From Pelosinus fermentans JBW45 (lineage in GTDB: Bacteria > Bacillota > Negativicutes > DSM-13327), in contig NZ_CP010978.1 of the NCBI RefSeq assembly GCF_000271665.2, positions 590,501-654,500 on the forward strand: a stretch of 64,000 bases of DNA, written 5' to 3'. Both the position numbers and the translations under genes were made by a program. This document shows positions 37,910 to 53,338 of this stretch, piece after piece. Within the stretch, counting starts at the first letter, position 1. The number at the start of each line of letters is the position of its first letter. A model generated the notes under the pieces. The model did not search any database. It was not told where the DNA came from and worked only from the letters and a program-made list of their open reading frames with translations.

Positions 37910-37936
37910 GAACCACAAAGGCACAATGCCGCAAAG
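37910..37936. repeat. Family A palindrome, truncated left arm
   Basis: GAACCACAAAGGCACAATGC breaks off inside the inner TGCCGC and is followed 7 bases later by a complete family B element. Confidence 0.8.
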
Positions 37937-37943
37937 AATAATT

Positions 37944-38029
37944 GAACCGCAGAGATGCAGAGTGCGCTGAGGGGGTTCTCTAACCCTATTAATTATCTTT
38001 TCTCTGTGCTCTCTGCGTCTCTGCGGTTC
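37944..38029. repeat. Family B palindrome
   Basis: GAACCGCAGAGATGCAGAG...CTGAG, a T-rich centre (taaccctatt), then CTCTGTGCTCTCTGCGTCTC and TGCGGTTC. It directly abuts a family A fragment. Confidence 0.9.
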
Positions 38030-38188
38030 GGTGATGTTTTAAAGAATGCGTAACTTCTTTCTGTTATATAATTATCTAAAAATTGCGTATATTAATGAAA
38101 ACATGCAGGATTATCGATAATATATGTACAATGTAATTACTATATCAAACATTTAGAAAATAATGGATTTTGCATGGGGGGAATTCGG

Positions 38189-38778: not shown

Positions 38779-38795
38779 ACAAAAAATAATGACGT

Positions 38796-38876
38796 AACCG
38801 CAGAGGCACAGAGCGCGCTGAGAGGAATTTCTAATCCTATTTATTTTTTCTCTGTGCTCTCTGCATCTCTGCGGTT
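38796..38876. repeat. Family B palindrome
   Basis: AACCGCAGAGGCACAGAGCG, CGCTGAGAGGAATTTC, then TCTCTGTGCTCTCTGCATCT and CTGCGGTT. Complete copy between a terminator and the MATE gene. Confidence 0.9.
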
Positions 38877-38974
38877 AAAAAAGGTAGAAATTTTTTAAAA
38901 TGGAGACCATTATTTTATAATGGGGAAAGCTAGTGTTATAATGAACAGGATGAATTACAGAATTTGGAGGTACC

Positions 38975-43843: not shown

Positions 43844-44698
43844 TTGCTGGAGAATGCTGGTGTCTTATATTTGTGTGCAACACCCATTGGAAATTTGGAA
43901 GATATGACGTATCGAGCGGTGCGCGTATTATGTGAAGTGGAAGTGATTGCTGCAGAAGATACGCGTCATACGAGGAAACTGCTCAGTCATTTTGATATTC
44001 ATACTCGGCTGATTAGTTATCATGAACATAATAAAGTGACGAGAGGACCGGAAATCATAGAGCGATTAATTACAGGAGAGAATGTAGCGGTAGTGAGTGA
44101 TGCTGGTTTACCGGGAATTTCTGATCCAGGATCTGACTTGGTGGAATTAGCGGTACAAGCAGGTATTCGGGTAGTGCCTCTGCCTGGTGCAAATGCAGCA
44201 TTGTCTGCACTTGTATCTTCTGGTTTAGATACAACCTTATTTTCTTTTCTTGGCTTTTTGCCCAAAAATAAAAAAAAACGGCGTGAATTATTGGCTAGTT
44301 TTGCAAACTCGTCTTATACAATGGTTTTTTACGAGTCACCGCATCGCATAAAACAGACATTGGCGGAGCTAAAGAGTGCTTTTGGGGATCGCCCAGCGGT
44401 GGCAGCTAGGGAATTGACTAAAAAATTCGAAGAGTTTATTCGTGGTACGATAGAAAGTTTAGTAACTCATTTCGCTGAAAATGATCCCAGAGGGGAGTTT
44501 ACCCTTATTGTGGGAGGTCGCAAAACCGATCAAAGTCTTGAAGCAGATACGGATGAACAGGAACAGCTTTCTGTTGAAGATGCTGTCATTGAATTAATGG
44601 AAACTGGTGTGGCTAAAAAAGATGCCATTAAAACCGTTGCCCAACAAAGAGGCTTACCAAAAAGAGAAGTTTATCAGGCAACCTTAGAAATAGAATAA
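43844..44698 (+). CDS. rsmI: 16S rRNA 2'-O-ribose C1402 methyltransferase
   Basis: A 284-residue tetrapyrrole-methylase-fold enzyme. ATPIGNLEDMTYRAVRVL near residue 12, AAEDTRHTRKLLSHF near 40, SDAGLPGISDPGSDLV near 85, GANAALSALVSSGL near 115 and FYESPHRI near 162 are diagnostic. The start is set at TTG 43844, 8 bases after AAGGAAG; the frame stays open far upstream only because it runs through a palindrome right arm. GTG 43835 is an alternative. Equivalent of Bacillus yabC in the conserved block. Confidence 0.93.
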   Translation: MLENAGVLYLCATPIGNLEDMTYRAVRVLCEVEVIAAEDTRHTRKLLSHFDIHTRLISYHEHNKVTRGPEIIERLITGENVAVVSDAGLPGISDPGSDLVELAVQAGIRVVPLPGANAALSALVSSGLDTTLFSFLGFLPKNKKKRRELLASFANSSYTMVFYESPHRIKQTLAELKSAFGDRPAVAARELTKKFEEFIRGTIESLVTHFAENDPRGEFTLIVGGRKTDQSLEADTDEQEQLSVEDAVIELMETGVAKKDAIKTVAQQRGLPKREVYQATLEIE

Positions 44699-44724
44699 AG
44701 TTCTGAAGAGAAGAAAGAATGATT

Positions 44725-44808
44725 GAACCGCAGAGGCGCAGAGCGCGCTGAGAGGATTTTTTTAACTCTATCTATTTTTTTCTCTGCGTCCTCTGCGTCT
44801 CTGCGGTT
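44725..44808. repeat. Family B palindrome
   Basis: GAACCGCAGAGGCGCAGAGC, GCGCTGAGAGG, T-rich centre, TCTCTGCGTCCTCTGCGTCT and CTGCGGTT. Complete copy. Confidence 0.92.
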
Positions 44809-44843
44809 AAAAAAGATAGAACCCTTTTTTGTTTTTTGGGCAA

Positions 44844-44874
44844 AAAAAAGAAGAGGTTATTTATAACCTCTTTA
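44844..44874 (-). terminator. Terminator of abrB
   Basis: On the minus strand AAAGAGGTTA pairs with TAACCTCTT around a short loop and is followed by a run of T (plus-strand A-run at 44844-44850). Confidence 0.85.
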
Positions 44875-44880
44875 AAATTC

Positions 44881-45135
44881 TTAAACAGCCTTTGTTACCA
44901 TTGCATCCAGGCATTCTTTGCAGATATTTTTATTTTTAAAGACAGTCACTTCATCCGCATTGCCACAGAAAACACATGAACAAGCTGGTTCATATTTGCG
45001 TAAGATGATACGGTCGCTGTCTACATAAATTTCTAGAGCGTCTTTTTCTTCAATGGAGAGTGTGCGGCGCAATTCAATTGGAATAACGACCCTACCAAGC
45101 TCGTCCACTTTTCTTACAATACCAGTTGATTTCAT
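44881..45135 (-). CDS. abrB: AbrB family transition-state regulator
   Basis: An 84-residue DNA-binding protein. The SpoVT-AbrB domain MKSTGIVRKVDELGRVVIPI occupies residues 1-45; the C-terminal part has CSCVFCGN...ICKECL, a four-cysteine arrangement (C-x-C-x2-C ... C-x2-C) of possible zinc-binding type. ATG at 45135 follows GAGGAGA at a normal distance; an upstream ATG would read through the control region. It is divergent from metG as in Bacillus and has three Spo0A boxes around its promoter, so repression at sporulation onset is inferred. Confidence 0.94.
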   Translation of the reverse strand: MKSTGIVRKVDELGRVVIPIELRRTLSIEEKDALEIYVDSDRIILRKYEPACSCVFCGNADEVTVFKNKNICKECLDAMVTKAV

Positions 45136-45166
45136 TATAATTAATTCTCCTCTCATTTCAACAACA

Positions 45167-45173
45167 TTCGACA
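45167..45173 (-). promoter_or_regulatory. Spo0A box at abrB, downstream of the promoter
   Basis: The minus strand reads TTTTGTCGAATG, containing the perfect 0A box TGTCGAA with the extended TTTGTCGAA context. It lies about 10-20 bases after the transcription start, the same relative place as in the Bacillus abrB gene. Confidence 0.75.
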
Positions 45174-45189
45174 AAATATGTCCAACTAA

Positions 45190-45218
45190 ATAATACCAAA
45201 TTCCCGTAAAGTTGTCAA
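45190..45218 (-). promoter_or_regulatory. Sigma-A promoter of abrB
   Basis: On the minus strand TTGACA (45213-45218), exactly 17 bases, TATTAT (45190-45195). The predicted start point lies just ahead of the Spo0A box at 45167. Confidence 0.85.
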
Positions 45219-45307
45219 CCTATTTTTACCATATCAGTAAATATGTTGTACGGTACTGCAAATTATCTTGTCAGAAAAAGACGAATGGTGCAAAGTCTCT
45301 AGAATAG

Positions 45308-45314
45308 TTCGACA
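45308..45314 (-). promoter_or_regulatory. Spo0A box, abrB-metG intergenic region
   Basis: TTCGACA on the plus strand, TGTCGAA on the minus strand: a second perfect 0A box, about 90 bases upstream of the abrB -35 element. Confidence 0.55.
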
Positions 45315-45340
45315 TAAGTGTATATTCTTGGTAAAATAGG

Positions 45341-45377
45341 GACAATAATAAAAAAGTATGATATTTTTATTATTGTC
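45341..45377. other. AT-rich 14-bp perfect hairpin upstream of metG
   Basis: GACAATAATAAAAA (45341-45354) and its exact reverse complement (45364-45377) enclose a nine-base loop. Its right end overlaps the third 0A box. It lies upstream of the metG promoter, so it may be a DNA site rather than an RNA leader. Confidence 0.6.
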
Positions 45378-45380
45378 GAA
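45374..45380 (+). promoter_or_regulatory. Spo0A box upstream of metG
   Basis: A third perfect TGTCGAA, 17 bases before the metG -35 element. Confidence 0.55.
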
Positions 45381-45396
45381 TTATGACATGGAATTT

Positions 45397-45424
45397 TTGT
45401 CATTTAAGTTATGGAAGGTACAAT
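45397..45424 (+). promoter_or_regulatory. Sigma-A promoter of metG
   Basis: TTGTCA (45397-45402), 16 bases, TACAAT (45419-45424). The start codon is 58 bases downstream. No T-box or SAM riboswitch fits in the leader. Confidence 0.7.
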
Positions 45425-45481
45425 TATAAAAAGAACATCTTTTGTTGCCAATTTAACATTATGGGGAGGCTTATTACAACC

Positions 45482-47416
45482 GTGGAAAAGAAACCATTTT
45501 ATATTACAACGCCTATTTATTATCCGAGTGATCGCTTACATATTGGTCATGCTTACACAACGACCATTGCTGATGCGGCTGCCAGGTATAAAAGGCTAGC
45601 GGGATCAGAAGTACTCTTTCTCACTGGATCAGATGAACATGGTCAAAAAATTCAGCGCAAAGCGGCAGAACAGAATGTGACACCGATTGCTTATGTTGAT
45701 AAAATTGTTGATTCTTTTCAGCAATTATGGGAGAAATTGAATATTTCTCATGATGATTTTATTCGTACAACGCAGCAGCGTCACCATGATGTTGTGCAAG
45801 CTATTTTCCAGAAAATTTATGATAAAGGTGATATTTACAAAGCTGCTTATGAAGGCTGGTATTGTACTCCTTGCGAAACCTTCTGGATGGAGCGGCAGGT
45901 TGTAGAGGGGAAGTGTCCTGACTGCGGGCGGCCAGTAGAAATCGTGCAGGAGGAAAGTTATTTCTTCCGCATGTCTAAATATCAAGACCGATTGCTTGCC
46001 TATATTGAAAGCAATCCTGATTTCATTCAGCCTGTATCTCGCCGTAATGAAATGCTGAATTTTATTAAGGGGGGGTTAGAGGATCTTTGTGTTTCCCGCA
46101 CAACCTTTGACTGGGGGATTCCTGTACCCTTTGACACCAAGCATGTCGTGTATGTATGGTTTGACGCCTTAACCAATTATATTACCGCTGCAGGCTATCT
46201 AGATGATCGGGAGAAATTTGCTAAGTTCTGGCCAGCTGACATTCATTTAGTCGGAAAGGAAATTGTACGTTTTCATAGTATTATTTGGCCGATTATCTTA
46301 ATGGCTTTGGATCTTGAAATACCGGCAAAGGTATATGGACACGGCTGGTTAATCATGGAAGGCGATAAAATGTCCAAATCCAAAGGCAATGTAATTGATC
46401 CGGTTACCTTAATTGAAGAGTTTGGTCCAGATGCAATTCGTTATTTCTTGCTGAGAGAGATCAATTTAGGAATGGATGGGAATTTCTCCAGAGAAGCTCT
46501 TATTAATCGGATTAATGCTGATTTGGCAAATGACTTAGGAAACTTATTGCATAGAACGTTAAACATGATTGGTCGTTTTAATGGTGGTGTGATTAAAGCA
46601 GCTGGTGATGTAGAAGAACTAGATCACCAGTTGGCACAATTAGTACAGAGTACCGTTATCCAATATGAAAAATTTATGGATGTTATGGATATTAATGCAG
46701 CAATCAAAGTTGTTTGGGCATTGATCAGCCGTACCAATAAATATATTGATGAAACGGCTCCCTGGGCATTAGCTAAGGATGAGGCGAAGCACTCCCGCCT
46801 TAATACGGTGCTGTACAATCTGGCAGAGACGCTGCGAATTATAGCAATTTTGATTACTCCTTTTATGCCGGTTACAGGACCAAAGATTTGGGGGCAGTTG
46901 GGGTTAACCACTGATTTTAAAGCTGTAACCTTGGAGGATGTTAAGGGCTGGGGAAAACTACCCGCAGGCATTGTTGTATCGAAACCTGAACCTATCTTCC
47001 CACGGATTGAAGATAAGGTTGTTGAAGCTGCAGCAGAAGTGAAGGCGGCAGATCAGGATAAACAACAGTCAGCAGCGGTAGCTGATGAAAATACCCCTGA
47101 GGTTAGCATTGATGAATTTGCAAAGATGGATCTTAGAGTCGTCACCGTACTAGCAGCTGAAAAAGTGGAAAAGGCTGATAAGCTCTTGAAATTGACGGTG
47201 GACTTGGGCACCCAGCAGCGTACTATTGTTTCAGGCATTGCTAAGCATTACACACCAGAAGAATTAGTAGGTCAGAATGTAGTCATGATTATTAACTTAA
47301 AGCCAGCGAAAATTCGCGGTATCGAATCTCGTGGCATGGTTTTAGCGGCTTCTTGTGATGATCAATTAAAAGTAGTCACCGTTCCCGGAATGCCTGCCGG
47401 CAGCAAGGTGAAATAA
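45482..47416 (+). CDS. metG: Methionyl-tRNA synthetase
   Basis: A 644-residue class I synthetase. The HIGH signature is HIGHAYTTTIADAAARY near residue 20, KMSKSKGNVIDP near 300, with a four-cysteine zinc knuckle CTPCETFW...CPDCGRP near 128-147. The C-terminal domain (about 540-644: DEFAKMDLRVVTVLAAEKV, NLKPAKIRGIESRGM) is the EMAPII/Trbp111 tRNA-binding domain. GTG 45482 is chosen (VEKKPFYITTPIYYPS) with GGGGAGG 12 bases upstream; ATG 45461 would overlap that site. It charges tRNA(Met) for initiation and elongation. Confidence 0.95.
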   Translation: MEKKPFYITTPIYYPSDRLHIGHAYTTTIADAAARYKRLAGSEVLFLTGSDEHGQKIQRKAAEQNVTPIAYVDKIVDSFQQLWEKLNISHDDFIRTTQQRHHDVVQAIFQKIYDKGDIYKAAYEGWYCTPCETFWMERQVVEGKCPDCGRPVEIVQEESYFFRMSKYQDRLLAYIESNPDFIQPVSRRNEMLNFIKGGLEDLCVSRTTFDWGIPVPFDTKHVVYVWFDALTNYITAAGYLDDREKFAKFWPADIHLVGKEIVRFHSIIWPIILMALDLEIPAKVYGHGWLIMEGDKMSKSKGNVIDPVTLIEEFGPDAIRYFLLREINLGMDGNFSREALINRINADLANDLGNLLHRTLNMIGRFNGGVIKAAGDVEELDHQLAQLVQSTVIQYEKFMDVMDINAAIKVVWALISRTNKYIDETAPWALAKDEAKHSRLNTVLYNLAETLRIIAILITPFMPVTGPKIWGQLGLTTDFKAVTLEDVKGWGKLPAGIVVSKPEPIFPRIEDKVVEAAAEVKAADQDKQQSAAVADENTPEVSIDEFAKMDLRVVTVLAAEKVEKADKLLKLTVDLGTQQRTIVSGIAKHYTPEELVGQNVVMIINLKPAKIRGIESRGMVLAASCDDQLKVVTVPGMPAGSKVK

Positions 47417-47460: not shown

Positions 47461-47508
47461 AGGATAAAAGTTTATGTTTTTGTGGAAGAGAGCCAGGAAA
47501 GAATGATT

Positions 47509-47594
47509 GAACCGCAGAGACGCAGAGCGCGCTGAGGGGGATTCTCTAACTCTATTATTTCTTCTTTCTCTGTGTTCTCTGTGCCTCTGCGGTT
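47509..47594. repeat. Family B palindrome
   Basis: GAACCGCAGAGACGCAGAGC, GCGCTGAGGGGG, T-rich centre, TCTCTGTGTTCTCTGTGCCT and CTGCGGTT. Complete copy between metG and tatD. Confidence 0.92.
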
Positions 47595-47649
47595 GAAAAA
47601 CGGACATGCAGTGTTTTGCTTAACATAACAAGTACAAGGAGTGTTAACC

Positions 47650-53265: not shown

Positions 53266-53338
53266 AACCGCAGAGACACAGAGGGGGATTTTTAACCCTA
53301 TCTATCTTTTCTCTGTGTTCTCTACGTCTCTGCGGTTC
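53266..53338. repeat. Family B palindrome, short version
   Basis: AACCGCAGAGACACAGAGGG without the usual GCGCGCTGAG, then the T-rich centre and TCTCTGTGTTCTCTACGTCT with CTGCGGTTC. A stray CCCTCTGTGGTTCG follows at 53414. Confidence 0.85.

Follow-up and report, generated by a model that had tools for sequence, protein, structure and literature searches.

Bacillus subtilis carries abrB divergently from the gene for methionyl-tRNA synthetase, with a tandem of Spo0A boxes, TGTCGAA-N3-TGACGAA, at abrB, and we know of no extra box at the metG promoter in that organism. In an account cited in PMC12090719, Spo0A bound downstream of the Bacillus abrB promoter acts as a roadblock to transcription, and PMC9160880 reports that deletion of the Spo0A box at abrB relieves repression. 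For Clostridioides difficile Spo0A, TGTCGAA is the experimentally defined 0A core, in which G2, C4 and G5 matter for binding; the sections available of the same study report that no abrB was found in C. difficile, and the Spo0A-abrB branch is hence missing there (PMC3485338). In Clostridium tyrobutyricum AbrB acts on sporulation, and 0A-box is not a term used in the available portion of that work (PMC9598496). For Sporomusa, within the class considered here, the accessible text names spo0A as regulated by SigH and leaves abrB and metG unmentioned (PMC12456013). In the open-access literature, as far as its texts were available, we found no account of an abrB operator in Negativicutes and no earlier description of an additional, positionally conserved Spo0A box at metG for this class. 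Here, we describe the abrB-metG intergenic region of Pelosinus fermentans JBW45, which lies in the window (the whole 64-kb stretch of DNA that was analysed), and compare it with the corresponding loci of relatives inside and outside Negativicutes.

The abrB promoter and its tandem boxes

The gene divergent from metG encodes an 84-residue protein with a PF04014 match, and its metG-divergent relatives in 40 class genomes are 68-100% identical to it, which marks it as an AbrB orthologue (Table 1). The start codon was set at the ATG at 45135, given that relatives use the corresponding ATG, and an upstream TTG was set aside. A first-pass annotation of this DNA had placed three perfect TGTCGAA boxes around a consensus abrB promoter, the first of them just downstream of it. 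All three boxes lie exactly where they were placed, and the promoter, TTGACA-17-TATTAT (45218-45190, minus strand), is present with a score of 11/12 and lies just ahead of the first box. Only this box is clearly abrB's by position, because the second sits on the predicted metG -35 and the third in the predicted metG leader. Also overlooked at that stage were the tandem partner of the first box (A2), the inverted half-box, the overlap of box B with the predicted metG -35 and the overlap of box C with an inverted repeat.

Table 1 Features of the abrB-metG region and of a dispersed repeat, in window coordinates
Feature	Position	Strand	Remarks
abrB, 84 aa	44881..45135	-	PF04014, E 2.9e-13; AbrB/MazE-type domain and C-terminal CxxC..CxxC
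Box A2, TGTTGAA	45157..45163	-	Tandem partner of A1; predicted +21 to +27
Box A1, TGTCGAA	45167..45173	-	Box 1 of the first-pass annotation; predicted +11 to +17
Inverted half-box, TTGGACA (abrB sense)	45179..45185	-	6/7 to TTCGACA; 12 bp before A1
abrB promoter -10, TATTAT	45190..45195	-	Extended -10 (TGG before the -10)
abrB promoter -35, TTGACA	45213..45218	-	Conserved block in 31 relatives
Box B, TGTCGAA	45308..45314	-	Box 2 of the first-pass annotation; overlaps predicted metG -35; TTCGACA in metG sense
Predicted metG promoter, TCGACA-17-TAAAAT	45309..45337	+	Identical in 9/9 family f1 loci
Inverted repeat GACAATAATAAAAA/TTTTTATTATTGTC, 14 bp	45341-45354/45364-45377	+	One arm overlapped by box C
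Box C, TGTCGAA	45374..45380	+	Box 3 of the first-pass annotation; inside predicted metG leader
metG, methionyl-tRNA synthetase	45482..47416	+	Probable GTG start
Palindromic element copies	37933-38040, 38795-38877, 44723-44811, 47507-47597, 53266-53337

The abrB start site is predicted about 7 bp past the -10, and the positive box positions in Table 1 are counted from it. Together, A1 and A2 read TGTCGAA-TGT-TGTTGAA, in the same direction and at a 10-bp pitch (TGTCGAATGTTGTTGAA, 45157-45173, minus strand), with A2 departing from the perfect 0A core by one change, C to T. The site thus has a perfect 7-bp core, a 10-bp tandem and a place just downstream of a sigma-A-type promoter. The inverted half-box sits about at the predicted start site itself, and in a number of families TTAGACA or TCAGACA is found at its position. 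As in B. subtilis, the Spo0A box lies downstream of the abrB promoter; compared with the B. subtilis operator, the second box here is TGTTGAA and there is an extra box at the metG promoter. Given the same anatomy, phosphorylated Spo0A would be expected to repress abrB as it does in Bacillus.

Single TGTCGAA boxes are unremarkable in this DNA, since the window holds 8 against a shuffle mean of 5.5, and at least 8 were found in 20 of 100 shuffles. The raw box count was consequently dropped as evidence, and the case is built on placement and conservation. A cluster of three perfect boxes spanning no more than 214 bp, wherever in the 64 kb it might lie, turned up in only 1 of 600 shuffles that preserved the dinucleotide composition of the window. 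The 5.38-Mb genome contains two copies of the tandem pattern TGTCGAANNNTGNYGAA, one at abrB and the other within an open reading frame of 232 aa, and none of its reversed control.

A cognate regulator is encoded in the same genome, in which the Spo0A C-terminal family has one match. The DNA-binding domain of this protein aligns to nearly the full length of 1LQ1, which we take to be a Spo0A-DNA complex, and of 1FC3. The stretch SRVERAIRHAIEVAWSRG, presumably holding the recognition helix, is identical to both of these solved Spo0A domains, so that the DNA-binding domain is canonical.

Conservation of the abrB operator

Sixty relatives were compared, of which 41 have an AbrB-like match, 19 have none and 35 have Spo0A; abrB is divergent from metG in 40 genomes of the class. 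Box A was counted where TGTCGAA occurred without mismatch at 20-110 bp ahead of the abrB start codon, and shuffles yield such a box by chance at 0.005 per locus. Considering metG-divergent abrB only, box A is present in 29/32 Spo0A-positive genomes, which cover 15 of 18 families, and in 0/6 Spo0A-lacking genomes (four of family f10, two of f22). The exact probability of this association, calculated by hand, is 3e-5 by genome and 0.05 by family, the family-level contrast being weak because only two families lost Spo0A yet kept abrB. Two drafts of the window's own genus (G004 and G007, 83-85% complete) carry the box without a Spo0A match; they were excluded from both fractions because they are incomplete and the absence of Spo0A was treated as missing data, and they were included in the 31 box-A loci used for the metG-side count. 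G027, which has two abrB copies, was counted once. Weaker AbrB-like matches were omitted from the conservation counts (G003 has a weak SpoVT-like match only), as were 10 AbrB paralogues (L124-L133) for which the retrieved sequence did not include metG. Two of these 10 paralogues, L124 (G054) and L126 (G043), carry a perfect sense-strand TGTCGAA near their start, which suggests that some AbrB paralogues without an adjacent metG may be Spo0A targets.

The three Spo0A-positive families that form the exceptions have no box A (f6), TGTCTAA (f7) or TGTCGTT, accompanied in one copy by TGTTGAA (f19). The f7 operator (L022/L035, Spo0A-positive) consists of a TTAGACA-N5-TGTCTAA palindrome with TGTTGAC at the tandem pitch. 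Among the Spo0A-lacking genomes, those of f10 retain a 6/7 match, TGTCGAT, at the place of box A, without a partner. With abrB and metG divergent and no Spo0A match, f10 (L118-L121) and f22 (L031, L123) are natural cases for AbrB without Spo0A.

Across the class, and with no prior selection of loci, the strict tandem TGTCGAANNNTGTTGNA was found in 31/180 genomes, namely 27/45 Spo0A-positive and 4/135 Spo0A-lacking ones, compared with 9/180 for the reversed control at the same settings; it is missing from 18/45 Spo0A-positive genomes. The 60 relatives compared first account for 29 matches, 25 of which fall within the abrB-metG region, and the reversed pattern gave 3 matches in them. Many Spo0A-lacking genomes of the class probably have no abrB altogether, and this class-wide comparison hence tests specificity more than loss.

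Outside the class, a perfect sense-strand box A precedes 52/72 abrB loci, against 1/72 for the reversed motif. This set comprises the 80 loci kept minus 8 from Negativicutes, sorted by record title and by likeness to the class loci; 3 of these 8 share 300 upstream bases with loci already in the class set. In Paenibacillus and Brevibacillus (L071, L074, L080, L082 and L083), abrB has a similar upstream tandem, TGTCGAA-N3-TG(A/G)CGAT, but its partner box is of the Bacillus type and it lies 55-80 bp ahead of the start codon. In several Paenibacillus loci, in which metG was not found, another perfect box is present 140-250 bp further upstream. The TGTCGAA core itself is also common to the C. difficile Spo0A targets. 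Because box A recurs in 52 of the 72 loci outside the class, the operator is old and common to Bacilli, Clostridia and Negativicutes. The tandem lies past the promoter, is near-unique in the genome, is conserved together with Spo0A and is accompanied by a cognate Spo0A, all of which gives good support to the earlier suggestion of a Spo0A-AbrB switch retained in this lineage; judged from these loci, the switch is most likely both kept and ancestral.

Perfect boxes on the metG side

Box B overlaps the predicted metG -35 in this genome, and box C stands in the same direction relative to metG as box A does relative to abrB. Box C was found in all 7 loci of this genus that were examined and is absent from two sister-genus loci. 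The 14-bp inverted repeat whose arm it overlaps was considered as a hairpin and not taken as a feature, because several members of the genus have box C without an intact repeat; the repeat is probably incidental. An Rfam search of 44600-46000 returned no match at the gathering score, and the weak miRNA-type matches correspond to a repeat element at about 44707-44827.

A dispersed palindromic element, with arms like CCGCAGAGGCGCAGAG and CTCTGCGTCTCTGCGG that lie 25-36 bp apart in the window, was also observed (Table 1). Allowing at most 2 mismatches, its arms have 136 matches in the genome compared with 2 for the control. Among the matches listed, no copy with 0 or 1 mismatch falls in 1.74-3.68 Mb, an interval whose centre lies opposite the contig start. 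A comparable gap is seen in G002, at 1.75-3.27 Mb of 5.0 Mb, and the single arms of that genome, judged by eye, are mostly on the plus strand before the gap and on the minus strand after it, as if the element avoided the terminus region and followed the direction of replication. In G006 the element is clustered differently, with most of 21 exact arms at 4.2-4.55 Mb.

Across Negativicutes, 25/31 box-A loci have a further perfect box in the abrB-metG region, in 13/15 families, whereas 629 rearranged heptamers reach an average of 0.5 families there. The only rearranged heptamer that exceeds TGTCGAA is GTTGACA, which is -35-like and lies in the abrB -35. The distance from box A to box B is 119-125 or 138-145 bp in 20/29 loci and 10/15 families, often 122 or 140-144 bp, and these spacing classes, which were picked after the data had been seen, arise at 0.0012 per locus in shuffles; the rearranged-heptamer control is independent of spacing. 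In f1 the direction of box B is opposite to that in the other families, in which TGTCGAA faces metG. In locus L013 (G009), the abrB operator/promoter region appears to have undergone a tandem duplication, offset by about 216 bp, so that a single intergenic region holds the tandem 0A site twice and box B twice. Outside the class, an extra box was found in 4/28 loci with box A and an adjacent metG and in 3/17 without box A. Lack of conservation had been named beforehand as an outcome that would count against the boxes; it is ruled out for the first (15/18 Spo0A-bearing against 0/2 Spo0A-lacking families), and the second is conserved by position in 10/15 families, but the third was seen only within the genus.

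This distribution bears on a rival account, in which function is confined to box A, the heptamers at B and C have arisen by chance or are related to the -35, and metG lies outside Spo0A control. Such an account would explain why neither B nor C has a good tandem partner in this genome (3-4/7 matches at the 10-bp pitch), why box C is seen only within the genus and why box A stands alone in the abrB-metG region of 6/31 loci, and the f1 box B coincides with a predicted -35 that would be constrained anyway. It fits less well with the spread of the extra box over 13 families where rearranged heptamers average 0.5, with its recurrence at 122 or 140-144 bp, or with families in which box B lies outside the -35 hexamer of a clear metG promoter, the distance from the start of the box to that of the -35 downstream of it being 16-18 or 35 bp in f3 (1 locus), f9 (3/4), f18 (2) and f23 (1). 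Beside box B of f2, f5, f13, f14 and f17 no clear metG promoter was found. A 6/7 tandem partner accompanies box B in f2, f5, f13 and f17, and the metG side of the f16 region carries a full tandem, TGTCGAAATGTGTTGAA, both of which also speak against stray heptamers. The same is true of the 6 Spo0A-lacking loci, which have no perfect box anywhere in the abrB-metG region. Families f6, f7 and f19 have no perfect box there either. On balance, we consider it unlikely that box A is the only functional site.

Box B could instead be a distal abrB operator, with Spo0A at B and A acting jointly on abrB and metG as a bystander. The spacing is suggestive in this respect, given that the A-B distance is kept at 140-144 or 122 bp, whereas B may lie anywhere between 82 and 411 bp from the metG start, and loci without a perfect A (the 6 Spo0A-lacking loci, f6, f7 and f19) are also without a perfect B. 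However, in several families the interval between B and a clear metG promoter is also fixed, at 16-18 or 35 bp, the extra box lies nearer metG in f16 and f20, and its orientation relative to A varies, which makes a purely abrB-directed role quite improbable.

In Bacillus, the abrB promoter is itself a target of AbrB, and the region has other conserved blocks, for example TTAGACA, both of which would suit an abrB motif kept for autoregulation or for another factor in place of Spo0A. That explanation is very improbable, given that the heptamer equals the 0A core defined experimentally in PMC3485338 and stands at a 10-bp pitch, and that the motif is not intact in f10 and f22, which bear AbrB and lack Spo0A.

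A proposed two-sided Spo0A target

We favour the reading that Spo0A acts on both sides of the abrB-metG intergenic region. Phosphorylated Spo0A would bind as a head-to-tail dimer to the tandem 0A pair just past the abrB start site, where it would block abrB transcription by a roadblock as reported for Bacillus, and the resulting fall in AbrB would release transition-state genes. Binding and repression at abrB are, from the anatomy and conservation of the site, highly probable. Through box B at the metG promoter and, in this genus, box C in the leader, the same signal would adjust the expression of methionyl-tRNA synthetase at entry into sporulation, most likely downwards. A box on the -35 and a second one in the leader would suit repression of metG, and the boxes 16-35 bp before the metG -35 in other families could allow activation. 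For this metG part, which we infer from box positions, the odds are roughly even. Taken as a whole, the reading that phosphorylated Spo0A controls both divergent promoters in spore-forming Negativicutes, lowering AbrB and resetting methionyl-tRNA synthetase, has a probability of about 0.5.

The abrB operator itself is of a known kind, and the extra metG-side box is the new part, which looks like an addition of Negativicutes. The comparison supports the wiring from Spo0A to abrB repression as ancestral to Bacilli, Clostridia and Negativicutes, and the operator is not intact in the two families in which abrB was kept and Spo0A lost. The position-conserved metG box leads to the prediction that, in one lineage, the master regulator of sporulation controls an essential translation gene. 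If true, translation capacity would be tied directly to the sporulation decision, as a lineage-specific addition to an ancestral switch.
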